Source: Lactifluus volemus (lineage: Eukaryota > Basidiomycota > Agaricomycetes > Russulales > Russulaceae). Taken from it: DNA of 64,000 bases. Numbering within the stretch: the first letter of the stretch is position 1; every line of letters starts with the position of its first letter. A program made the position numbers and the translations under genes. The DNA lies in contig WTXI01000009.1 of NCBI GenBank assembly GCA_022376515.1, forward strand, positions 124,001 to 188,000. The letters run 5' to 3'. Under the pieces are notes generated by a model. It worked only from the letters and a program-made list of their open reading frames with translations, made no database searches and was not told where the DNA came from. Below, in pieces: positions 43,181 to 58,821 of this stretch.

Positions 43181-44698
43181 TCAGGCTGTACCATTGCGGC
43201 GCGTGCTACTTGCCACCCAACGGTTCGCAGATATTTCTAGCGGGACCACAGGGTCAAACGGAGGGCCATGGGTAGGAATTTGTATGGTGGGGCCTGCACT
43301 GCCCACGACGCTCGCACGGTTGGAGTCATTGCCACCACGCTTTTGGCGTGTGCGGTCACGGCCCGTACCGCCCTGACTGATTGTGCGCACCATTACGGGA
43401 GGGCGACCACTAAGTGGACCACTACTAACGGACGCAGAGCGGCTGCCACCGGAAGCAAGAAAACGTTCTTCATTCGACATCTTGCTCGCCGACGTTGAGA
43501 ATTGTCCCATCTGGAAACCAGTGCCAGCGTTCTTGCCCATAGAACCAGGTATGAAACCGAGGCCAATCGATGCAGCCCGTGCGGGGGCTGTCGTGTTATT
43601 TGATGCACGATGCCGACCATGCGACATCGGATGAGAGGTGTCTCTTCGTTCAAGTCCGATGTTTTCCAGGGGTAGGAGGTTATCAGGTTTCTCCTTGCAG
43701 ATGTTCATGAACTGTAATAAGAAGTCGCGATCATACCTAGCAGAGAAATATGTTGTAAAAGCAAAAATACAATGACATCCGTGGGACTTACCGGAATTTT
43801 CCCTTCTGTGTGTTAATATTGAGCTCAGCTTTGGGGCACTTGATGCCCTCAGGATAGGTAATACAGTTGATGTCTTCAATGTATCGCGCGGTGGCAAGCA
43901 CGGAAGGACAAGCGGGAGCCTTCTTGGCGTGGAGAATATGTGGGATGGCATGCAGTTGGCTTGGAATGCCATGAGAGGAAGTTGTCGAAGGTGTTAATGG
44001 TGCTATAGCCAAAGCTGCCGCAGTTGCTACATGCGCGGTCTTAGCCGCAATTCCGAAACGCTCTCCCGGATGCCAAAGTGCCTCAGATGCCGTTTCCATT
44101 GTCATGAGCGCTAAATCCCGCTGCTGTCGAAGAACAGATTGTGCAGCCTGGAAATAGTTCCATATATCGGGGATGCTGTCTATTTGCACGTCCGGGTACT
44201 TCAACTCGAGAAATTCCTGCAGTCGCGCCGCTTGATTACCCGAGAAGGCGCCAAGGAACCACCTCGCTTGTTCCAATGTCGAGAGTCGATCCTCTTGATA
44301 AGAAATGTCGAGATCACCATGAACTTTCGGTAAAATGCGCCAAGATCCTCGACACTTTCCATTTCGCATCGTGCTCGCTCGTTGACGAGCGCACTTAAGT
44401 CCCAAGTTGTGTATCTGAGGGTGTCAGTCGCTTCGGGGTAGAATGCATGAACCTCGGCTTTGAATGCCTCGTAGGAACGTGTAGGGTCGTCCCACGACGC
44501 TGCGCATTGCCAGAGCTCTCGCACGTCCGCCGAAACGTAACGTACTGCCGACTGTTTGCGTTGTGCGGCATCCGACACCCTATGTCTCTCGAATAGGTAC
44601 TCCAGCTCTTTGAAATAGCCCGCTAGCTCATGGGGGTTGTCCTCGTTGAACCATGGCGCTGATACATCATTTCGGGTGGGTAAGTCGTAGTCCGGCAT
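43181..44698 (-). CDS. Gag-like domain fused to the eIF4E-binding module of eIF4G (fusion copy 1)
   Basis: Two exons: 44698-43792 and 43736-43181, 487 residues after restoring one base near 44290-44293 (the sibling at 51.9 kb has that base). Residues 1 to about 205 are Gag-like: PTRNDVSAPWFNEDNPHELAGYF, LEYLFERHRVSDAAQRK, FKAEVHAFYPEATDTLRY, LGAFYRKFMVISTFLIK and DRLSTLEQARWFLGAFSG. This resembles the Gag of Agaricomycete Ty3/gypsy-type elements. The rest copies eIF4G: ITYPEGIKCPK, NTQKGKFR, and after the intron the eIF4E-binding motif YDRDFLLQF (Y-x4-L-phi). It stops (GTA-stop) just before the point where MIF4G would start, so there is no MIF4G or MA3. The intron sits exactly where eIF4G has one. 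No pol genes or LTRs were seen. Confidence 0.78.
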
Positions 44699-46040
44699 TG
44701 TAATTACAGCGAAAATTCGATGGAGAACGCTGTCGTGGGTCTTCGTGAAATGTGAGCGCACCGTGCGAGAGGGTTGGTAGAGAACCTGCCGAGCTCTCCA
44801 CGATTCCCAGGTGGCTGTGTATTGTGGCCAAAGGGGTTGATTTGAACGTGTTGGTAGTGATGAATGACCGCGTGCCCCTCCTGGTATCGCAGGTACAATA
44901 ATCCAAAATGCAGTTGTGCAAAGACACAAGTCTCCCAGCTGAGATGTATATTCCAGCCTCCAAGATGCAGTGATTAGCATCATTCTGAATTCAAGCACCG
45001 TCGACGCGGACTCACTCCTGGATGATGCAGTTCCTGGGGACCTTAAAGTGTCGGATCGCTGGGTGAAGATTCTTCCAAGCTAGGGTATTCCGACTGAAAG
45101 GAAGGAAAAGGGCGGGGAGAGCACCCCACGTGGTAGTGAAATTTCCCTTGTACTGCGCCGCAGTGTGCTAGACATGGATGGTGGATATTGGACGGCGTCC
45201 ATGCTGAAGCGCTGAAATGACGCGGGCATTCCAGAGCTTGGAAGGGCTTTCCCACGCTCACGAGCACCTTGAAGGAACAAGCAAGGAACTTCAACACAGT
45301 ACAAGAGATCATCGATCATCACGCATGAAAGGGAGACCAAAATATAGACTGTAAACCTAAGCGCAAATCTGCGAACCAGGAGACACACATTACGACATAC
45401 GCAAACACAAAGAACCGAGAATAATTGAACGATCCATAAGTTAAAAGAAGGGATGACAACAAAGCCTATATCCTACCCCAATCGCGCTGCTAGTGGAAAC
45501 ATGAACGCAGAGCAGCCCGCAGATACTGGCAGTCTGGATGCTGTGATTTTTGTCGGCCTTTCATTTGTACTTTTGTTGTTCAAAATATCTCAATGCAGTC
45601 GTAATACGGTGGCCACTGGCCAGCCGCAAATTAGTGTCATCACTCTCTTTGTGTGCTAGGCCATGGCATCCAGACAACTTGACTCCCAGTTCCACTGCCA
45701 GTGGCCACACACTCAGAAATACGCGTCTCTGCGGCGGTGGAGGCTTCAATAGGCACCCACCCATGTTGATTATAATAATGATGGGCACAATTCTTACACG
45801 GGAGGCAAAAGCGATGAGATAAGGACCAGGGAGATGGCTAGCCCAAAGGTGCACCTCGTACTTGACCCTGCTAAGTGGCCGGGGAAAGAACGAGAACGTT
45901 ATGATATCATAGCGCGCATCAAAATTCAATTGATGTCGCACGTTCATCCCTAATTCAGAACATGTTACGATATACAGAGAAAGCCAAGAAGATACAGATA
46001 CTAAAAAAACATGGGTTTGAGCAACATTGTGGCGTGATGG
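44699..46040. other. intergenic between fusion copies 1 and 2
   Basis: The right part of the copy 1 leader and promoter is at 44699-45200. No gene recognised at 45.2-46.0 kb; open frames there are short and unrelated. Confidence 0.4.
45030..45200 (-). promoter_or_regulatory. promoter/leader block shared with fusion copy 3
   Basis: Resembles 52550-52700, which lies at the same distance upstream of fusion copy 3. The most exact shared piece is TGCGCCGCAGTGTGCTAG; around it similar spacing of purine-rich blocks is seen. This suggests that the Gag-fusion genes were duplicated with their promoters. Confidence 0.55.
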
Positions 46041-46151
46041 TGATCTCATGACGAAAAAGTGAAGAAAAGAAAAGGGCGCTTTGTCGATCCGTACGGCCAG
46101 CTAGTGCAAAGGAAACTTTGATACGAAGGAGATGCAAACAAACCCACCACG

Positions 46152-49002
46152 CTACAACAGTCTATGAAGTTTATCACGGTCCATCGTCTTCTCCGCGATC
46201 CGTGCAAGCCGGTCCTCATCTTCGTCTAAACCAGACCCTTTCAGTAACATCACGAAGTACGACCATGCCTTCGGTATATCAACCGCCAGATCGTCCAGAA
46301 GCTCCGCCAATCCATTGAATCCTTCCTCGAAGGCTGACCCACTGCACAGATCCTTCTCTCGTACACGGATGAACAGCTCGCTCACCAGGCTCACATCGGG
46401 GTCCTTCATCTCGATGCATTTCATCACGAGAGTGTCCACCAGACGGTGCCGATGTTCCGTTGGAAGGCCAGAAAAGTATGACTCTGCCTCGTCGAGCAGG
46501 CGAACATTGAAGAACTCCTTGACATCTTCTTCGATCTTCGCCTTAGCATCCGCTTCCGACATGGGACCCATAGCAGGCGTGCTGGCATCTTCTAAAGTCT
46601 CATCATCCGAACCCTCGGACACAGCAGGCGTCGATTCCTCTCCAACCGGCCGACTTCGTGGTAGCAAATGGAGTTTCCGTCGCTGTGGTGGTGGCTCAGG
46701 AGGGCCACTGGCTGCAAGATCCACGCTAGGTTTCCTAGTACTCGGCGGATGACTGCTCTTTGAAATGAAGGTTCTACTGGAGCATCGGAACTCTGAAGCA
46801 TCGAAAACATGTTGGAGCTTGTCGAAGGCGTGTGTGACATTGACGAGTCACGGTTCTTGGGATCTACCTTCTTGCCGGCAAAGATGCTACTAGGATCGAA
46901 CGTCATCGCCTTGTTGATTTTCCCAAACTGCGACAGGTCTGCCTTCTGTTGGGTGCGAGCAGTGCCTGTGCCGGCAACGGGCCATCCATCAGAGAGAGCA
47001 ACTTCGGTGACATCCCTGTTGCCACCACGGCGAGCATTCTGCCGTATATGAGATTCCTTCTCCTGGGCAAGCCTCTCTTTGGCATACTGTACGATAACTG
47101 GTTGGTCAAAGTTCTGAGGTCTGAGAAGAGACAAGAAACATACCGCTGAGTGTACTTGGGCAATCGTCGTGGGCATCGCGACTGTATTTCGAGGAACCCA
47201 TTTACGTTCGCGGAGTTCGAATATTTCCTGAATCAGCACGTCAGTCTTAGACTTGCAAAGGGCGGTAGCACGAACCTGGAGCATAGATATCATGTATTCA
47301 TTGACGTGCTTGTTTTTCGTCCATTCCCGCATGCGCGAAAAGTAGACGTCGATATGCGCCCGGGCTTTAACCGTGTCGAGTAATCTACCAATTGTCCACA
47401 GGAGCGTGCACAATGCCTCGACCTCTTCCTCCTGAGGGTTTTCGACATTGCTGACGAGCTTTTTGATGCACTCGTGCATGATACGTTCCGTCAGAATTTG
47501 CGCCTTGAACAATTCCCCCATGAAACGTATTAGTCCCAATCTGCGACGTTTTGCACCGGCTGCCGCATAGTCTTCGTCCGAGTACAGCCCAGAGTCCCCG
47601 CCAGCCTTAGTCTTCTCGTTGGCCTCCTTCACAGCCTGGGCTTCGGCTGCCCTAGCTGCAGCGGAAATTGTAGTCATTTCCTCCCTAACGACCCACCCTC
47701 GCTCGAAGTCCTCTTGACAGCAATTAAGCAGGTACTTGCGGAATAACTGACCACCTGCGAATGGCTTTCCCTCTGCGTTCTTGATGCCGTCATCCTTGAC
47801 CTTGGGGCTGATCCCTTCCATCGTTTTCCGACATAGCCGCGCGTACATTTCCGAAAATGTCGCTTCATTGGTAGCCTTCTCGAAAATGAGCTTGACGACC
47901 TGGTTAAGTGTCCGGCCATCCTTCTCCTTTTCTGACATGTTAGCCCATACGATGATTTGATCAGAAGTTGATTCGAATCGCTCCATGGTGAGTTTATTTA
48001 ATAGAGCCTTGAGTTTACGTTCCATGATTTCGGGTGACTCGCCGCCAAGGCCAGAACCACTGAGAGGTGGGCCAGTGGCTGCCCAATGGTTCACAGGCAC
48101 CTCAAGCGGAGAGAAGGGTGGGCCCGAAGAACCCACGGAAGTAACTGATGCAGCAAGATTTGCGCTATCCACAATACTCGTATGGTGAGAATCGTTTGCG
48201 CTGGACTCTCGGCGCCTGCTTTTTGTGTGTTCCGTAATGGAGTAGTGACCACCAGGCGATTCACAAGCGGCTTGTGATGTCGACGCCGCGACCGAAAACG
48301 TGGAGGAAGATGCTGAGGATGTAGGAGGATGTGATATAGTGGAAGCTGTCGCAGTCGGTGCCCGCGCCATCGTTGCATTCCGCTTTTCCGGATGCCGAGG
48401 CGCTTCGGATGCCAATACTTCTGTCGCGTGCGTCGAGTACAACTGAGGCAGAAGCGATTGTGCCTCCTTAAAGATGTCCCCTATGCCTAGGGAGTTGGGG
48501 TATCTTGATTCAAGTCGTTGTTGCAGGTGAACGGCTTGATCACCTGAGAATGCATCTAGAAACCGTCTCGTTTGTTCCAATGTCGAAAGTCGATCCCTTT
48601 TGACAAGAAAAGTCGAAATGACCATGAACTTCCGGTAGAATGTGCCAAGACATTCTACACCCTGCATTTCACCTTGTGCTCGCTCGTTGACAAGGGCATC
48701 TAAGTCCCGAGTTGTTAACCTGAAGGCGTCGGTCACCTCAGGATAGAAGGTGTAAACTTCAGCTTTAAAGTCGTCATAGGAACGTGTGTGATCGTCCCAT
48801 GCAACTGCGCACTGCCAAAGTTCTCGCACGTTCACAGAAACATAACGCACTGCCGACCGTTTACGTTCCGTCGCATCGTAAACGCTATACCTCTCGAATA
48901 GGTACTCCAGGTCCTCAAAATAGTTTCCAGCTCACGGGGATTGTCCTCGTCAAAACGTGGCGCGGACACGTCATTTCGTGTGGGTAAGTGGCAGCTTGGC
49001 AT
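46152..49002 (-). CDS. Gag-like domain fused to eIF4G MIF4G and MA3 domains (fusion copy 2)
   Basis: Start ATG 49002 (MPSCHLPTRNDVSAPRFDEDNP). One base is missing near 48924-48929 and one near 46766-46769; with these and two introns removed (47275-47228 and 47143-47087) the product is 915 residues. Residues 1 to about 200 are Gag-like (RSAVRYVSVNVRELW, FLGTFYRKFMVISTFLVKRD-type block, STLEQTRRFLDAFSG). A Ser/Thr-rich linker follows, then MIF4G (LLNKLTMERFESTSDQIIVW, GGQLFRKYLLNCCQEDFERGW, RFMGELFKAQILTERIMHECI) and MA3 (EFFNVRLLDEAESYFSGLP, WSYFVMLLKGSGLDEDEDR). No eIF4E-binding motif is present. Both introns match eIF4G introns but are 48 and 57 nt, so the frame stays open even if they are retained. 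The last 600 bp and the 3' flank are almost identical to eIF4G. Confidence 0.8.
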
Positions 49003-49798
49003 TGTGACTATAAGAGGGGGAGATGAGGCGAATCGACGAGGAAGACATGTAACGCAGTCGTGAGGCTTCACTGTATCACGGCTCGTGATCGTGCCGGTAT
49101 TGAGACGACTTCTTTGCTGATGGAATCACTGTTACGATGTGTCAGGTTGTCGAGGGGGGATTAGGGTTGTAGTGGTGGGTGGTGATGGCGGCGATAATCG
49201 TGATGAATAAATCCTGGTGCGCTTGCCTTCCTCGTAGGGCAGACAGTTCAGAAATTGAGAGGCTGTACACAAATACAACGTGCGCTTCTGCCACTCTTAT
49301 GATGATCACCAGAATATCGAGCGAGGAATGCAAGTCCTCGGGAGCATCGGAACTGGGCAAGACTCGAAGACCAGGTGTGGACATCATGGCAGTATTTTCC
49401 CACAGTGCATGTGAGCCATGAGAAAGAAGACCAACACTAAGAGCAGGCTAGGATAGTTCCTCATGCCTCACATCCTCTCGTCAGGAGCCAGGAACTTCGA
49501 GGTATGAGAACTTGGGAAAGTACGAAGACGAACTTACCAAGCTCGAGAGAAATAAACATCCTTGTGTCATTTCCTTGCCGTTTTTCACGGTAAGAAAATG
49601 AAAAATTTCGGTGTTAGAATAGATCTTGCGGAAACAGAACGTAAATTTAAGCTATTCCGACTGGTATCCAAAAGTAGAGAGCTAGAAATACTTCATCAAC
49701 AGTAGAGTGACCGTCAATTTGAGGTCAGACGTGATGTGCTAGCAAACATTCGTCAAGTAACAGCCCGTTAAGCTTCTCATTGTTCCTCGTCTTTTCAC
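49003..49798. other. intergenic between fusion copies 2 and 3
   Basis: Promoter side of copy 2 and 3' side of copy 3. No further feature recognised. Confidence 0.4.
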
Positions 49799-52368
49799 CT
49801 ATCCGTTCACGACGCTCCTCTCTTTGTCCAAGCCCGAGCCCTTCAATAGAATAGCGAAGTACGACCAAGCCGCCGGTATATCACGCGCGAGGTCGCCTAG
49901 AATCTCCGCCAGTCTACTAAACCCTTCCTCAAAGATCCGGGGATTACACAGACCCTTCTCTCGTACACGGACGAATAGGTCGCCAACCAGCCTCACGTCG
50001 GGCTCCTTCATCTCAATGGATTTCGCCACTAGAATTTCCACAAGGAGATGACGATGTTCCGTTGGAAGGCTAGAAAAATACGACTCGGCCTCGTCGAGCA
50101 CGCGAATGCTGAAGAACGCTCTGACGTCCTGATCGATCTTGATCTTGGCATCTGCTTCTGACATGCCAGCTCCGGCAGGTTCCCCGTCGAGGCCAATCTC
50201 GGACGCGGCAGGCTTGATGAATTGAGACGTTTTCCAATAGACTTGGTTCGTGGTGACAGTTTGAGCTTCCGCCGCTGTGGTGCAAGCACCTGGGACCCAG
50301 AGTCTTCGGGATCACCCTTCTTGCTGGAAGAAACAGCGACAGCGTCGATCGTCCCGAACTGCAGTGGCCAGCCTGCCTTTGGTTGTGTTCCACTAACCGT
50401 CGTGGGCGTTGCAATGGTATTACGAGGAACCCATTGACGTTCGCGGAGTTCGATTACATCCTGGGTTAGCGCGTCAGTCAGGGTTGTCGGGGACGTCATA
50501 GACGGTAGCACAAACCACGAGCTTGAACACCAGTCGCCCGTTGACGTTCTTGTTTTGCGACAATTCTTGTATGTGCGAAAAATACACATCAAGTTGCGCG
50601 TGAGCTTTAGGCGTGTCAAGCAGACTACCGGTTGCAGTCAGGAACATGGCCAGGCTCTCGATCTCATCCTCCTCAGGGTTTTCCACGTTACGGAGGAGCT
50701 TTTTAATGCACTCATGCGCGATACGCTCCGTCAATATTTGCAATTTGAAAAGCTCCCCCATGAAAACGATGAGTCCCAATTCGCGACGTTTTGCCTTGGC
50801 TGCGGCGTGATGGTCATTGGAATGTAACCCGGATACCTCGTCTACTTCATTCTTCTCCTTGGCTTCCTTGACGTCTTGGACATCGGTTGTCCCAGTATTG
50901 AACCACCCTCGTTCGAAATCCTCTTGACAACGATTGACCAAATACTTCCGGAATAACTGGCCGCCTGTGCACGGTTTGCGCTTGGCCGTAAGCGTGCGGT
51001 GGTCTTTCACCATGGGACTGACTTTCTCCAGCATCGTGCGACACAAGCGCGCGTACAGCCCAGGAAACATTGCATCATTAGTCGCGTTCTCGAAAATGAC
51101 CTTGATAACTTGGGTCAACGTCCGCCCGTCAGTTTCCCTTTCAGACTTGTTCGCCCACACGACGATTTGGTCCGAGATCGAGTCGAAACGTCCCGTGGTG
51201 AGCTTGTTCAATAGAGTCTTGACTTTACGCTCGACCATTTCGGGTGACTCGGCGTCAAGGCTGGGATCATGGCTTATGCTAGTCGCCACCCAGCGGTTCG
51301 GAGACATCGGTAGCGGAATGACGGGTTCCATCGGAAGGTCCGTCGGAGGGTCTTCCGTATCCATGGTAGAAATTGGCACGGCAGGACCCGCGTTACTAAT
51401 GGTGGTCGTGTGGATTGAGTTGTCTGCAATGCGCTTTTCGCCCCTGCGGTCACGACTCGTGCCACCTTGACTGATAGTTTGTTCCATCACAGGAGGGTGG
51501 TCACTAAGTGGTCCATTAGCGGCTGGTGACGTTGATGCTGCTGAAAAAACTGTTGTCGAGATTGTCGACTCGGAACACTTGTCAGACGGTCCCATCGCAG
51601 TTTCAGGCGTCAGCGGTGCCGCCACTGGAGCCAAAATGACGGAGGAAGCTGTCGAAGGTGTAGGGGGTGACTGGGCCGAGGCTGGTGAGGCTGGCGCGCG
51701 GGCCTTTGTCGCATTTTTTGCTTTTCTGGACGCCGGGGTGCTTGAAGAGGCGGAGGCGCTGTTACTCCAGCCACGCGTGAAGAGTACTGCTGCCGTAGAA
51801 GAACGAATTGAGCTTCCTCAAGGATATCCGCCAAGTCTGGAATGTCGTCGAAATGGGCTTTGGGGTTCTTCAACTCGAGTCGTTGTTGCAGGTGGGTGAT
51901 TTGATTGCCAGTGAACCCACTTAGGAACCATCTCGCTTGTTCCAATGTCGAGAGTCGATCCCTCTTGATAAGAAACGTCGAAATCACTATGAACTTCCGG
52001 TAAAATATGCCAAGATCCTCGACACTTTCCATTTCGCACTGTGCACGCTCGTTAACGAGCGCATTTAAGTCCCAGGTTGTGTATCGGAAGGTGTCGCTCG
52101 CCTCCGGGTAGAATGCGTGAACTTCAGCTTTGAAGGCCTCGTAGGAACGTGTAGGATCGCCCCACGCCGCTGCACATTGCCAAAGCTCTTGTACGTCCAC
52201 CGCAACGTAACGTACTGCGGACTGTTTGCGTTGCGTGGCATCCGACACCCTATGTCTCTCGAATAGGTACTCCAGTTCCTCGAAATAGCCTGCTAGCCCG
52301 CGGGGATTTTCCTTGTCGAAACGTGGTGCTGAGGCGTCATTTGGTGTCGGTAGGTCGTAGACTGGCAT
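49799..52368 (-). CDS. Gag-like domain fused to eIF4G MIF4G and MA3 domains (fusion copy 3)
   Basis: Start ATG 52368 (MPVYDLPTPNDASAPRFDKENP). One intron, 50518-50461 (58 nt). One base is missing in a run of six T (plus strand) at 51714-51719, one at 50230-50234; with both restored the length closes to 837 residues. The Gag-like part is intact (RGLAGYFEELEYLFERHRVSD, KAEVHAFYPEASDTFRYTTWD, SIEDLG-like IFYRKFIVISTFLIKRDRL). MIF4G (LLNKLTTGRFDSISDQIVVW, GQLFRKYLVNRCQEDFERGW, GELFKLQILTERIAHECIKKL) and MA3 (FFSIRVLDEAESYFSSLP, WSYFAILLKGSGLDKE) are clear but more diverged from eIF4G than copy 2. About 70 residues between them are deleted relative to eIF4G. There is no eIF4E-binding motif. Confidence 0.8.
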
Positions 52369-53836
52369 CGTGATTCGTTTCGCGGGTTGTGGTCGTGCTG
52401 ACGATTGCTTTCGCCGTCAGTCGCTGTGACGTGTCGTGTGAGCAAAGGACTTGCTTGAATGCAGCAGTAGGGGTAATGAATAAACCCGCGCGAGTCGGTG
52501 GTATCGCAGGTACGGTAGTCTGAAAAACAACACCGCAAGGACGGTATTCCCCAAAATGCTGCCAGTGGATTGAGGAGTGAAGGTATTTCTGGCGTTAGGA
52601 TATTGCGATTGGAAGAAATGGATCGTGGTGGGACAGGGCGCGCACGGTAGTATAAAACCTACTTGTGCTGCGCCGCAGTGTGCTAGGACTGGACATGAAG
52701 AGTCGATAAGACATTCGTCTACTACATTTGACATTAGACGCCGAGAATGTGAAAAACGCATTTTTGTAAGGTGGCGCGCACTGGCAACATGTTCAACGAA
52801 ATACAACGTGCCCTTCTCGGGCTCAGGGCACAAAGCCGACGGGTAGCAGGAAAACAAGCATACGTAGAAAGTGGGTTCTCCTACAAGGAACCTACAGGCC
52901 CGAAGAAGATCGATCCCTGTGGCTTGGGAGAGTGCCCCAAACCCAGGGTAACTTACTGCGTAGCAGGGCTTTCAATACAAAGGGAAAGCGTCAAAGATCT
53001 TTGTAGATATAAAGGGTGGGAGGATATAAAACCCATCAAAGAATCGCGTATATACATGTGAAGGGATACGCCAAAATCGAGATTTAAACATAAGAGTACT
53101 AATGCCAAACACGCCAAACAAAAACCTCCTCAAATTCACAACAGGCATAAAAGCCAGCATAAGCCAATGGCCCAAGTATCGGTGACTGGAAGAAAGAAAT
53201 GACGACTCGGATGGGGGAAGTGCGAAAAGGGTAAAGAGTGCATATGTTCGTTCTGAAGTGCAACCTTGTCGATGTGCACTTCATGTTCTACCCCAATCAG
53301 CCTAAGCATGGGCGATGCCTGCGCAGTCGCCAAACTAGGATTAAGAAACGGTGCCAGAGGAAGGCAAGAACGAGCTACGGCACAGCGCTACGGAATGACA
53401 GGTTGCGCGACTTGGACAGAAAAGGCACCGGGATGCAGGAGACACCGGACAGTGTCCAACAGTCGTTGTCCCGGTTCGACATTGTATTGCCGCAGCGCTG
53501 CAGTCCGAGTCCGTTCTGGCTACGCATTATTGACGACTTTTCGGAACCTACTGCGGAGGTGCGCAATAACGGAGTCTGGTGGTCTTATCGGATGCACAAA
53601 TTAGAGTTAGTGAAGTGAAAGTTAAGTCATCAAACACGACGTCGCGGTCTATGGGTCCCGTAAAGAAGAAACATGTTGTCAATATACATACGAGCCCCAT
53701 GCAACAAAAGGGGAAGGCACCAATGCTAGGAAGTTGAAAATAAGTAACAGTGTGCTGTGATGGTAACGAATATGGGAAGAAAGAAAACGGGGAGGATATA
53801 GAATAAGGGTGCTTTATTGAATCGTACAGTAAGCTA
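52369..53836. other. intergenic between fusion copy 3 and eIF4G
   Basis: Copy 3 promoter at 52369-52700 and the eIF4G 3' region at the right. Nothing recognised between. Confidence 0.4.
52550..52700 (-). promoter_or_regulatory. promoter/leader block shared with fusion copy 1
   Basis: Partner of 45030-45200; see there. Contains TGCGCCGCAGTGTGCTAG upstream of the copy 3 start. Confidence 0.55.
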
Positions 53837-53873
53837 GTGAAGGGGAAACGAAGCAGATGCAAGCAAACCCACG

Positions 53874-56800
53874 CTACAACAGTCTATGAAGTTTATCACG
53901 GTCCATCGTCTTCTCCGCGATCCGTGCAAGCCGGTCCTCATCTTCGTCTAAACCAGACCCTTTCAGTAACATCACGAAGTATGACCATGCCTTCGGTATA
54001 TCAACCGCCAGATCGTCCAGAAGCTCCGCCAATCCATTGAATCCTTCCTCGAAGGCTGACCCACTGCATAGATCCTTCTCTCGTACACGGATGAACAGCT
54101 CGCTCACCAGGCTCACGTCGGGGTCCTTCATCTCGATGCATTTCATCACGAGAGTGTCCACCAGACGGTGCCGATGTTCCGTTGGAAGGCCAGAAAAGTA
54201 TGACTCTGCCTCGTCGAGCAGGCGAACATTGAAGAACTCCTTGACGTCTTCTTCGATCTTCGCCTTAGCATCCGCTTCCGACATGGGACCTATAGCAGGC
54301 GTGCTGGCATCTCCTGAAGTCTCATCATCCGAACCCTCGGACACGGCCGGCGTAGAAACTTCCTCTCCAACTGGCCGACTTCGTGGTAGCAAATGGAGTT
54401 TCCGTCGCTGTGGTGGTGGCTCAGGAGGGCCACTGGCTGCGAGATCTACGCTGGGTTTCCTACTCGGCGGACGGCTGCTCTTTGAAATGGAAGGTTCCAC
54501 GGGAGCATCGGAGCTCTGGAGCATCGAAAACATGTTGGAGCTTGTCGAAGGCGTGCGTGACATTGACGAGTCACGGTTCTTGGGATCTACCTTCTTGCCG
54601 GCAAAGATGCTACTAGGACCGAATGTCATCGGGGCAGTTGCCTTGTTGATCTTCCCGAATTGCGACAGGTCTGCCTTCTGTTGCGGGCGAGCAGTGCCTG
54701 TGCCGGCAACGGACCATCCATCAGGGAGAGCAACTTCAGTGGCATCTCTGTTGCCACCACGGCGAGATCCGCCACGAGACATGCTAGCATTCTGCCGCAT
54801 ATAGGAGTCCTTTTCCTGGGCGAGCTTCTCTTTGGCATCCTATAGGCAGACAGTCAAAGGGGAACCGGTCATGAAGTGTGAGAAGAGACATACTGCTGCG
54901 TGTACTTGGGCAATTGTCGTGGGCGCCGCGACTGTATTTCGAGGAACCCATTTACGGTCGCGGAGTTCGATCACATCCTGAGTTACGCGCGTTAAGAGTG
55001 GGTTGAACACATAAAGTCACGATAGCACGAACCTGGAGCATAAACATCATGCGTGCGTTGACGTTCTTGTTTTTCGTCAACTCTCGCATGCGCGAAAAGT
55101 ACACATCGAGGTGCGCTCGGGCTTTAACGGTGTCAAGCAGACTACCGACCGTCGTCAGGAGCTTGCATAAGCTCTCGATCTCTTCCTCTTCAGGGTTTTC
55201 CACGTTTCCAAGGAGTTTCTTGATACACTCGTGCATGATACGTTCCGTAAGCATCTGCAACTTGAAAAGCTCCCCGATGAAACGAATCAGCCCCAATCCG
55301 CGACGTTTCGCCTTGGATGCAGCGTAATATTCGTCCGAGTACAATTCAGAATCCTCGCCTGCCTTGGTATTTTCGTTGGCCTCCTTCACAGCCAGATCTT
55401 CGGTTGCCTTGGTTGCGGCGGCGGCAGCGGTCGCTTCCTTGGCGACCCACCCTCGTTCGAAGTCCTCCTGGCAGCGATTAAGCAAGTACTTGCGGAATAA
55501 CTGACCACCTGCGAATGGCTTGCCCTCCGCATTCTTGATGCCATCGTCCTGGACCTTGGGACTGATCTGTTCCATCATTTTCCGACATAGCCGCGCGTAC
55601 ATCTCAGAAAACGTCGCTTCATCAGTAGCCTTCTCGAAAACGAGCTTGATGACTTGGATGAGTGTCCGGCCGTCCTTCTCCTTTTCTGACTTGTTGCCCA
55701 TGCGATGATTTGATCAGAAATTGAGTCGAATCGCTCCATGGTGAGCTTGTTCAATAGACCCTTGACTTTACGCTCTACAATTTCGGGCGACTCGTGGTCA
55801 AGACCGGAACCATTGCGGCGCGTGCTACTTGCCACCCAACGGTTCGCAGAAATTTCTAGCGGGACCACAGGGTCAAACGGAGGGCCCATCGTAGGAATTT
55901 GTATGGTGGGGCCTGCACTGCCCACGACGCTCGCACGGTTGGAGTCATTGCCACCACGCTTTTGGCGTGTGCGGTCACGGCCCGTACCGCCCTGACTGAT
56001 TGTGCGCACCATTACGGAGGGCGACCACTAAGTGGACCACTACTAACGGACGCAGAGCGGCTGCCACCGGAAGCAAGAAAACGTTCTTCACTCGACATCT
56101 TGCTCGCCGACGTTGAGAATTGTCCCATCTGGAAACCAGTGCCAGCGTTCTTGCCCATAGAACCAGGTATGAAACCGAGGCCAATCGATGCAGCCCGTGC
56201 GGGGGCTGTCGTGCTATTTGATGCACGATTCCGACCAGAGCCACCTCGCGACATTGTGTGAGATGTATCGCTTGGTTCAAGTCCGATGACATCCAAGGGT
56301 GGGAGGTTATCAGGTTTCTCCTTGCAGATATTCATGAACTGTAGTAAGAAGTCGCGATCATACCTAACAGGGAAACATGTTAAAAAACAAGAATACGAGA
56401 ACATGTATCTATAGGACATACCGGAATTTTCCTTTCTGCGTGTTGACATTGAGTTCGACCTTGGGGCTTTTGATACCCTCGGGATAGGTGATACGATTGA
56501 TGTCTTCAATGTGTCGCGCGGTGGCAAGGGCGGAAGGCAAAGATGGAGCGACGTTGGTAGTTATGGTTGTCTGGAGGTTGAGCGGGCCAGGACGTTTCCG
56601 CGTATGCTCTGGAGATGGAAGAGAGGTGTCGATACGAAGTGACTCCTTCTCTAAAGGCTTAGCTGGTAAATCTGCGAGGAGATGTGACGGAACCTGAGCA
56701 GAAACGTTTTTGCTGGCTGGAGCTGACTCTTCAGGAGTTGGAGCGGCGGGCTGTAACACATCATCCTCGATCTCGCCTTCTTCCGACAGGGAATCCGGCT

Positions 56801-58821
56801 GTGCGTCAGAAACCTCATCAGAGGCGCACGTGAGGTGTCGACAGTCTCAGTAGCTTTGAGAGCCTCCTCAGCTTCTTTACGCAGTCGCTCGGCTTCCTCG
56901 TTTGCGCGGGCTTCCTCTGCTTCCTGAAGCTTGCGTAATTGTTCCTGCTCCACCCGCTCTCTTTCTGCCTTTTCCTCAGCTTCGCGCTGGGCGCGAATCT
57001 TCTCCAGACGCAGGCGCTCTCTTTCGCGCTCCTCCATTGCAGCACGTTCTTCGGCTTCTTTGCGTTCCGCTTCTTCACGAGCGGCACGCTCCTCAGCTTC
57101 CTTGCGCTCTTTTTCTTCCTGGGCCGCCCGTTCTTCGACTTCCTTACGCTCCCTCTCTGCGCAGGCCGCTTCCTCCTTTGCCTTGCGTTCTTCCGCAAGC
57201 TTGCGGAGCTCTTGCTCTTCCATCAGGCGACGGGCTGTGTCTTCATCAGTGGCCTTAGCTACGGCCTCGCTCATTTTGTTATTCTCCTCCCCGTCGCCTT
57301 CTTTTGCCCTTTCCTCAGCAAGACGTTTTTTGTTCTGTTCCTCGCTCTCAAGCCGAATAGGCGCGCGTTTAATTTCTTTTTTGGTGAGCGCAGGAGAGGG
57401 TGGAACTGGAGGGGCGGCTGTAGGGGTTCGCTTCACTGTCTCAAAATTAACCTCTTGTCCAGAAGGATTCTTGATCGAGATTTTCTTATTCGGGACGAAA
57501 GCACCAGCGTTGGCACTGAGTGATGTCGAACGGTTGGAAACAGAAGGCGTAGGCGGGGGTGATGTGACGGCGGGCGGAGGATGGGGAGCAGATGTGTGAG
57601 GAGGATGGTGAATAGGTGGGATGGCATGTGATTGAGTAGGGGTGCCCGGTACCTGTTGCAATGGTATTGGCGGGTTTCTTGGGGACATAGGCAAACCCGC
57701 GGACGGCGGAGCCGGGCCTGGCGGATGATGCGGCGGCGGCGGCTGGTGCTGAGGTGGGATCAGGTGCCCTGCCCACTGCGGTGAATAAAACTGTTCTGGA
57801 GAGACGAATGAAGGGGGATACTACAACGGCATAAATGTCAGGCGCTGACGTCATCGAGACAGCGGAGTAAAAGTAAACGCACGTAGTAATTTGCCCACAT
57901 GGTATGTGGAGGAGGTAGGCCACTAGGCGGGCCAGGAGGCGGATGGGGTGTCAGTCTCGGACTAGACAAAGCTGGAGGGGCGGGACCAGCGCTAGGACCG
58001 CCAGAACCAGCTTGCGGCCGACCACTGACACCAGCAACACCGCTTTGGCCATTTGCCATGGGACGTGGATAGACCGGGGACCGAGGGGCAGAAGGGTTAC
58101 CATTTTGTCCCTGGCGTAGAGTAGCGTTCGGCGCGAAGGCGGATGAATACGGCTGACCCTGACTGGGGGCTTGGGAAGGTAATGACGCGGATCGCGATGC
58201 GGGGGAAGCAGCCTCAGGGGTGGGTGCGGGTGCGGGCTGGGTAGATGGGCCTTGAAAGAGCTTTGCGACACTGAACTTTTGAACAGGCGGTGTCGTGGAT
58301 GTAGGTACAGCGGAAGCCTGAGACGACGAGGTAGGAGTGGAGGAAAGTTGTGGCTGTCGGTTGGTGGCGGCAGACTGTGTTGAGTCAGAGACACCATTCT
58401 GGACGGCAACGGAGCCGAAGGATCTGACACCCTCTGCAGGTATTACTGCTGGTGCAGATGCTGGCGAAGAGGATATAGGTGCCGAGGCATCATCTATTGA
58501 GCCAAAGGTCACAGCTGATCCTAGGCAACGAAATTTTCAGGAAGGGGCAGTTGAGGAAGATGGGTCAGGATTACCTTGCGTCACTGCGTTTCGTGGGATG
58601 CCGACGCCATCCCTTATGGATACCCCCCGACCAAGAGCACTCGGACGGCGGGAATGAGTTGCATGATAGCTGGTAGCGGAAATGGGGGTAGGTGGGGCAG
58701 GAGATTGTGAGCGTGGAGTAGTGGTCGCGCTGTTTTGTTGTGGAGGGCCCCGTGCCCAAGCAGACTTTGACGGAAGCTGGGAAGGATTCTTCGGTGTTGA
58801 AGCTGTTGCAGATCTGCTCAT
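53874..58821 (-). CDS. eukaryotic translation initiation factor 4G, full length
   Basis: Six exons: 58821-58575, 58520-57883, 57790-56422, 56363-55033, 54977-54894 and 54839-53874. With one base restored near 56819-56830, 56015-56020 and 55695-55699 every phase closes, giving 1,545 residues. eIF4G is the scaffold joining cap-bound eIF4E, eIF4A, PABP and eIF3. A Ser/Pro/Gln-rich N-terminus (SKSAWARGPPQQN) is followed by a highly charged helix of about 190 residues with repeating ERKEAEERAA units. Then come ITYPEGIKSPK and the eIF4E-binding motif YDRDFLLQF (about residue 753), MIF4G (about 940-1195: LLNKLTMERFDSISDQIIAW, GQLFRKYLLNRCQEDFERGW, GELFKLQMLTERIMHECIKKL), a linker (SQFGKINKATAPMTFGPSSIF) and C-terminal MA3 (VRLLDEAESYFSGLP, MLLKGSGLDEDEDR). 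It is the likely parent of the three fusions. Confidence 0.93.

Follow-up and report, generated by a model that had tools for sequence, protein, structure and literature searches.

Genes joining a Ty3-type Gag capsid domain to eIF4G parts in Lactifluus volemus, with a possible role of clustering in translation control

Hosts have domesticated Gag capsids on many occasions, and a few of these capsids are fused to host proteins. SCAN dimers are described as related to the C-terminal domain (CTD) of the capsid (PMC3720700, PMC7231272). For fungi, a Bel-Pao gag-PEX14 fusion is mentioned in the part of PMC10799480 that cites Wang and Han 2021, and for yeast DRT2 and p22 are described, in PMC10951436 and PMC4599808, as derived from the Ty1 family, unfused to a host domain and acting on closely related elements. 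Here we analyse a locus in a 64,000-nucleotide stretch of Lactifluus volemus (the window; part of contig C618 with 1,016,287 bases, in an assembly of 62.4 Mb), where three of four adjacent genes carry a Gag capsid domain of the Ty3 type joined to parts of eIF4G, the scaffold of translation initiation. We consider it highly probable that these genes represent a Lactifluus gene family built from a co-opted capsid and eIF4G parts. They may control protein synthesis by clustering.

The first-pass annotation had placed four genes on the minus strand, and self-comparison of the window recovered them there: P (58821-53877), then B (52368-49820), C (49002-46155) and D (44698-43181). P is the parental full-length eIF4G that had been claimed to lie beside the fusions, with an N-terminal region, an eIF4E-binding block, MIF4G and MA3 (assigned by Pfam and alignment). 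Self-comparison and Pfam also agree with the claim that the other three open with one and the same Gag-like domain of approximately 200 residues, joined to eIF4G parts. The repeated blocks follow this division: Gag is common to B, C and D, MIF4G and MA3 are common to P, B and C, and the eIF4E-binding block is common to P and D. DNA identity within the Gag block amounts to 84% between B and D, 78% between B and C and 77% between C and D, over 473-515 bases.

In B, the Gag domain comprises 200 residues (51769-52368), as judged from an ATG-started open frame, the homology to Gag in Ty3-type open reading frames (ORFs) and a capsid-like model. It is followed at 49820-51768 by a linker, MIF4G (51298-50516) and MA3 (50173-49820), assigned by Pfam, alignment and the ratio of nonsynonymous to synonymous substitution (dN/dS) against P. 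The Gag domain of C with the beginning of its linker (48383-49002) rests on alignment, dN/dS against B and D, and an unbroken ortholog (P0002); the rest of the linker, MIF4G (48091-47276) and MA3 (46574-46155) extend over 46155-48382 on the same grounds as in B. D has its Gag domain at 44121-44698 (alignment; unbroken ortholog P0122) and continues at 43181-44120 with a linker, the eIF4E-binding block (43913-43791, an intron, and YDRDFLLQF at 43735) and a Ser/Gly-rich stretch, stopping before MIF4G, as seen from PF12152, PDB matches and the identity to P. All of these features lie on the minus strand. MIF4G and MA3 are carried by B and C; D consists of Gag and the eIF4E-binding block only.

Searching the same genome with the Gag domain yielded 25 matches, four of them pieces of the array and 21 located elsewhere with E-values from 5.8e-14 to 3.1e-4 and an identity of 20-26%. 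Nine of these 21 lie in open frames of at least 1,900 residues, and eight of the nine are free of stops in the matched stretch. The one matched ORF that was examined (on contig C24, 2017 residues) contains the models RVT_1, RNase H, Integrase_H2C2 and rve, the last below its curated cut-off. The Gag nature proposed in the first-pass annotation is thereby borne out by Ty3-type ORFs, and the outcome named there as a refutation, a failure to match any Gag, did not occur. Chance similarity to Gag was considered, and is ruled out by the 21 matches outside the array. Identity above 30% to the fused Gag occurs within the genome at this locus only.

An AF2 model of the Gag domain (pLDDT 85) has a predicted two-lobed helical CA fold. 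All 50 VIA matches listed for this model are retro-capsids or Gag-derived proteins, and its structural neighbours include the capsids of Copia, PEG10, Ty1 and Ty3 as well as Arc, PNMA2 and the CA-CTD of Ty1 p22. Foldseek by itself gave a weak match (E 0.74), and against viral models nothing at E ≤ 0.001, with a herpesvirus protein and one other entry in the top rows and a few Gag proteins lower down. The match to Pfam Retrotrans_gag that had been expected does not occur, and no Gag family was matched in sequence searches of Pfam, PHROGs and PDB with this domain; a search of PDB with A3 returned eIF4G chains, which stem from its fused rows, and otherwise a single match at E 0.59 to a ribosome recycling factor. 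Genome matches and predicted fold together show the N-terminal domain of B, C and D to be a Ty3-type Gag capsid (CA).

The CCHC zinc-knuckle pattern was found in none of the eight Gag-bearing proteins scanned, so that the RNA binding of Gag, on which the first-pass annotation had drawn, need not carry over to the fusions. A pol domain is likewise missing from the fusions scanned by Pfam. Because there is no CCHC pattern and eIF4G sequence follows in the place of pol, the domain is Gag-derived and not part of a retroelement. A stand-alone Gag-like protein, P0131, is approximately 40% identical to the fused Gag and thereby nearer than any element found in the genome of the window; on this sequence similarity it is perhaps a candidate for the donor lineage of the Gag domain.

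MIF4G is the eIF4A-binding HEAT domain of eIF4G. In P, Pfam matches MIF4G at E 2.4e-42 and MA3 at 1e-10, together with PF12152 above the cut-off. The corresponding values are 1.7e-36 and 1.5e-8 for B, and 1.7e-42 and 5.3e-11 for C, whose MIF4G also matches the PDB chain 2vso_E at E 3.3e-37. D contains the PF12152 eIF4E-binding block with YDRDFLLQF. For its peptide the PDB gave the chains 6fbz_B (E 3.5e-8) and 1rf8_B (E 0.0012), named eIF4G and eIF4F p150. The DNA of this region is 90% identical to P at 56549-55809. Neither Pfam nor alignment found MIF4G in D, except for a possible remnant of approximately 45 bases. The block with its YX4L(hydrophobic) motif is thus present in P and D, and it is absent from all five MIF4G-bearing fusions, the genes of the B and C type being without it. 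No W2 domain was found in the frames of B and C, where Pfam gives only MIF4G and MA3 above the cut-off. The suggestion of a DAP5-like factor consequently holds for the architecture of B and C, in which MIF4G and MA3 are present without the eIF4E block; it does not hold for D, which keeps the eIF4E block, nor with respect to W2.

Genome-wide, MIF4G was matched eight times, namely in C, P and B (149-129 bits) and in five weaker cases on four other contigs (96-25 bits). One of the weaker matches on C606 together with C478 led to UPF2 chains and C596 to CWC22, and the match on C113 (L005) found no PDB chain. PF12152 occurs in P and D only, and MA3 in P, B, C and C596. As far as these genome searches go, P, B, C and D appear to be the eIF4G complement of the assembly. 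There are 156 MIF4G columns without variation among 20 canonical eIF4Gs; P keeps 155 of these, P0036 148 and the fusions 112-130. Judged by this alignment the MIF4G of the fusions is constrained, yet no longer canonical. The predicted structure of one fusion has two folded modules with a long disordered tether between them.

In two protein surveys the 7,993 and 7,995 best-sharing candidates were scored, and in the first the best 120 of 761 matches were examined. Among these 120, blastp at 1e-5 detected the Gag domain in at least five proteins (P0002, P0006, P0008, P0011 and P0014), and in each of them Gag and MIF4G are parts of one uninterrupted protein. In P0122, Gag leads to the beginning of the eIF4E block, and the protein terminates at the intron before YDRDFLLQF; its Gag shares 172 of 189 residues with that of D. 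P0011 is practically gene B (99.5% identity in Gag, 100% over 245 MIF4G columns). B, C and D hence all have an ortholog in other sequences. In the Gag tree, from which P0128 was left out, the partners are P0011/P0014 for B, P0002 for C and P0122 for D (bootstrap 97-100), the relations between these groups lacking resolution. From L. subvellereus we obtained two Gag proteins (P0123, P0125) and one MIF4G-MA3 protein (P0036), each from a contig of 291,219 bases, which would place the three genes together in that species as well. The architecture that the first-pass annotation had proposed to look for in related genomes is thus met in independent, unbroken fusions and in P0125 of L. subvellereus, in more than one species. 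The matches listed in the two surveys contain no fusion from Lactarius or Russula.

Some further proteins of the surveys deserve mention. P0021 (Lactarius hatsudake), P0108 (Lactarius deliciosus) and P0025 (Russula brevipes) are eIF4G relatives without N-terminal part, eIF4E block or Gag, perhaps independent DAP5-like truncations or else errors of the gene models. P0003 (Mycena filopes) has two tandem MIF4G blocks and one YDRDFLLQF in a single annotated protein, which could be real or a fusion made by the gene model.

Selection was analysed by NG86 between the copies in the window, that is between paralogs; values involving P are lowered by the constraint on P itself, and B-C compares two fusions. 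For Gag, dN/dS is 0.22 (B-C), 0.21 (B-D) and 0.15 (C-D), with upper 95% bounds not exceeding 0.34. MIF4G gives 0.19 (P-C), 0.21 (P-B) and 0.21 (C-B), and MA3 gives 0.21 (P-B). Gag and MIF4G are accordingly both near 0.2 at a synonymous divergence (dS) of 0.6-1.3. In a gapless Gag block of 136 codons, B and D differ at 11, 12 and 34 first, second and third codon positions (omega 0.15); when these changes were placed at random 1000 times, no placement gave a value as low (mean 0.74). The eIF4E block of P and D has a dN/dS of 0.17 in the first exon (41 codons) and 0.47 in the second (112 codons, mostly recently converted), of which the first 45 codons give 0.31. Between the window paralogs the Gag part of the fusions is under purifying selection by these estimates, a test of selection having been proposed in the first-pass annotation.

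The comparison of orthologs leads in the same direction. Protein identity for Gag, linker and MIF4G is 0.90, 0.80 and 0.87 in the B type (with P0011 in place of B) and 0.88, 0.78 and 0.84 in the C type, and for D against P0122 it is 0.91 in Gag, 0.74 in the linker and 0.97 in the first part of the eIF4E block. In six of six pairs, which are not independent of each other, Gag ranks level with or above MIF4G in conservation, and MIF4G ranks above the linker. This ordering bears on an alternative according to which one half alone matters: the Gag N-terminus would be inert or serve localisation, and the genes would act simply as truncated eIF4G paralogs, DAP5-like or dominant-negative, that work without assembly. 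Such truncated relatives without Gag are seen in P0021, P0108 and P0025, so that truncation alone may be tolerated if their gene models are right. The conservation of Gag, which equals or exceeds that of MIF4G in all six pairs, speaks against an inert N-terminus, and we regard this alternative as unlikely.

The same data are relevant to a restriction factor, as considered in the first-pass annotation. In that case the Gag domain would co-assemble with the Gag of retroelements, and the eIF4G part would poison the assembly or draw translation factors into the particles, limiting transposition or a mycovirus. There is a precedent in yeast, where DRT2 is described as a domesticated Gag CA-CTD restricting Ty1' (PMC10951436); the Gag model has Ty1 p22 as one of its structural neighbours, the family is a tandem one, and the genome holds many Ty3-type elements. 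Co-assembly with these present elements is unlikely, however, because they are merely 20-26% identical to the Gag domain and no closely related element was found in the genome. The Gag domain is moreover strongly conserved, at least as much as MIF4G, without a sign of an arms race. An action against retroelements therefore receives no support here, and we hold it to be unlikely.

Regarding the origin of the array, we propose that a Gag piece without zinc knuckle, protease and pol was joined at the DNA level to a copy of the adjacent eIF4G, and that local duplication, internal deletion and gene conversion would have led to the tandem family. The sequence at the place of the MIF4G intron of P is retained in B (after 50516) and, by alignment, in C, which points to a copy made from DNA. 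In P0125, Gag is joined to the N-terminal sequence of eIF4G (GTPTQSHAIPP..., as in P), and D and P0122 have a shortened version of this junction; B, C and their relatives have a second join point immediately before MIF4G. The linker after Gag is similar in all fusions, which favours a single origin of the Gag-linker part. The MIF4G tree (28 of 30 rows; P0117 and P0104, which lacked an anchor, were left out) rejects a single clade of the eight rows tested (p-AU 0.0004), so that this origin requires gene conversion with P, or re-joining, in addition. Over the final 400 coding bases the identity of P and C is 98-99%, and their MA3 ends (P 54296-53877, C 46574-46155, minus strand) share 139 of 140 residues at a dS of 0.04, compared with 0.67 for the MIF4G parts. 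These values fit a recent gene conversion between P and C at the MA3 end.

The explanation we prefer overall is thus a co-opted Gag-eIF4G family with this origin and with self-association as its mechanism; taken as a whole it has in our judgement an even chance of being correct, and for the self-association mechanism by itself we would stay slightly below that. The Gag domain could serve as a self-association module in analogy to SCAN in zinc-finger proteins. B and C would then be multivalent, eIF4E-independent MIF4G/MA3 scaffolds, comparable to DAP5, which may act as activators of particular mRNAs or as competitors of eIF4G for eIF4A and eIF3, and D would be a multivalent eIF4E binder in competition with eIF4G, similar to 4E-BP. 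As the Gag domain is common to all three, B, C and D may co-assemble. A long shot is that eIF4F is split here, with its eIF4E-binding half in D and its MIF4G-MA3 half in B and C on one domesticated capsid, where mixed Gag assemblies from dimers to capsid-like shells would either reconstitute the cap-binding complex on particular mRNAs or sequester it there. If this is true, a retroelement capsid would have given rise to a particle for translation initiation. Should the capsid multimerise at all, assembly would be tied to initiation, and a clustered working of eIF4G parts would become directly testable.

In this assembly, small indels break the reading frame in all four genes of the array. Six breaks are single missing bases relative to the sister copies, two in P (near 56020 and 55697), two in C (near Gag codon 25 and near 46768), one in D (near 44292) and one in B. 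Of two further break sites in B, one is ambiguous and the other falls in an A-run at which P0011 keeps its frame. A TCP-1 gene of the window (PF00118; 21727-20066, minus strand), presumably theta/CCT8-like, switches frame three times in the same direction, at places too narrow for introns, as read by eye. Subunits of TCP-1 as well as eIF4G are essential in known eukaryotes, and because of this and the breaks of the same kind in the TCP-1 gene those in P, B, C and D look like indel errors of the assembly. It weighs against this that nine of the 21 Ty3-type matches sit in open frames of at least 1,900 residues in the same assembly.

The long open frames, together with the breaks in all four genes, the lack of MIF4G in D and the recent P-C conversion (MA3 dS 0.04), could be taken to mean that the genes are functionless chimeric duplicates, expressed or silent, in which a Gag remnant came by accident to lie beside eIF4G duplicates. 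Such a pseudogene array is hard to reconcile with the dN/dS of approximately 0.2 in Gag and MIF4G at dS 0.6-1.3, with the intact frames that the orthologs of B, C and D have in other sequences and with the breaks of the same direction in the TCP-1 gene, which indicate assembly error; we consider it very unlikely and count it as rejected. That a mobile element captured eIF4G sequence, without a host family being involved, has practically no probability left and is rejected as well, since it has the Gag homology only in its favour and is opposed by the lack of pol domains in the Pfam-scanned fusions, the DNA-level copy indicated by the intron-position sequence in B and C, the single locus with Gag identity above 30% and the position of the array next to its parent gene.

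Among the other genes of the window, one similar to leucine carboxyl methyltransferase adjoins D (43068-42124, minus strand; PF04072 in two neighbouring frames), and a myo-inositol-1-phosphate synthase gene lies at 7243-6221 (minus strand) with flanking exons (PF07994, PF01658).

Host-Gag fusions are already known, including one from fungi; a capsid joined to a translation-initiation scaffold seems new, as it was not found in the literature matches listed. These matches, mainly from the open literature, contain no published description of a Gag-eIF4G fusion, and Wang and Han 2021 may list a case. The screen for fungal fusions of host genes with transposable elements (TEs) in PMC10799480 relied on Pfam TE domains, and eIF4G, MIF4G, Lactifluus and Russula do not occur in its main text. 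A screen of this kind would probably miss the present family because no Pfam model matches the fused Gag. The family shows how a host-TE fusion can remain invisible both to such screens and to annotation, where the L. volemus protein for gene C (P0004) begins inside MIF4G.

Compared with the systems described before, Arc, PEG10 and PNMA2 are similar in being domesticated capsids and neighbours of the Gag model; to our knowledge none of them is fused to a translation factor. DAP5/eIF4G2 (p97, NAT1) resembles B and C as an eIF4G relative with MIF4G and MA3 and without eIF4E site. DAP5 has a C-terminal W2 domain, and as none was found in B and C they would work like DAP5 without being members of it; they carry a Gag capsid in addition, and have arisen separately because the MIF4Gs of the fusions fall inside the clade of the named Russulaceae rows (98/97). 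DRT2 and Ty1 p22 are, like the present domain, Gag capsid pieces retained by a host, p22 CA-CTD being a structural neighbour; they differ, according to the available descriptions, in their Ty1-family source, the lack of a fused host domain and their closely related targets. The gag-PEX14 gene, as far as the citing text describes it, is a fungal host-Gag fusion as well, with another element superfamily and another host partner. The SCAN zinc-finger proteins, derived from a Gmr1-like Gag CA, are alike in that the capsid domain of a long terminal repeat element was fused to a host regulator and grew into a family. They differ in that their lobe is of the CTD type and belongs to tetrapod transcription factors, whereas the Lactifluus fusions keep both lobes, have eIF4G as the partner and occur in a fungus.

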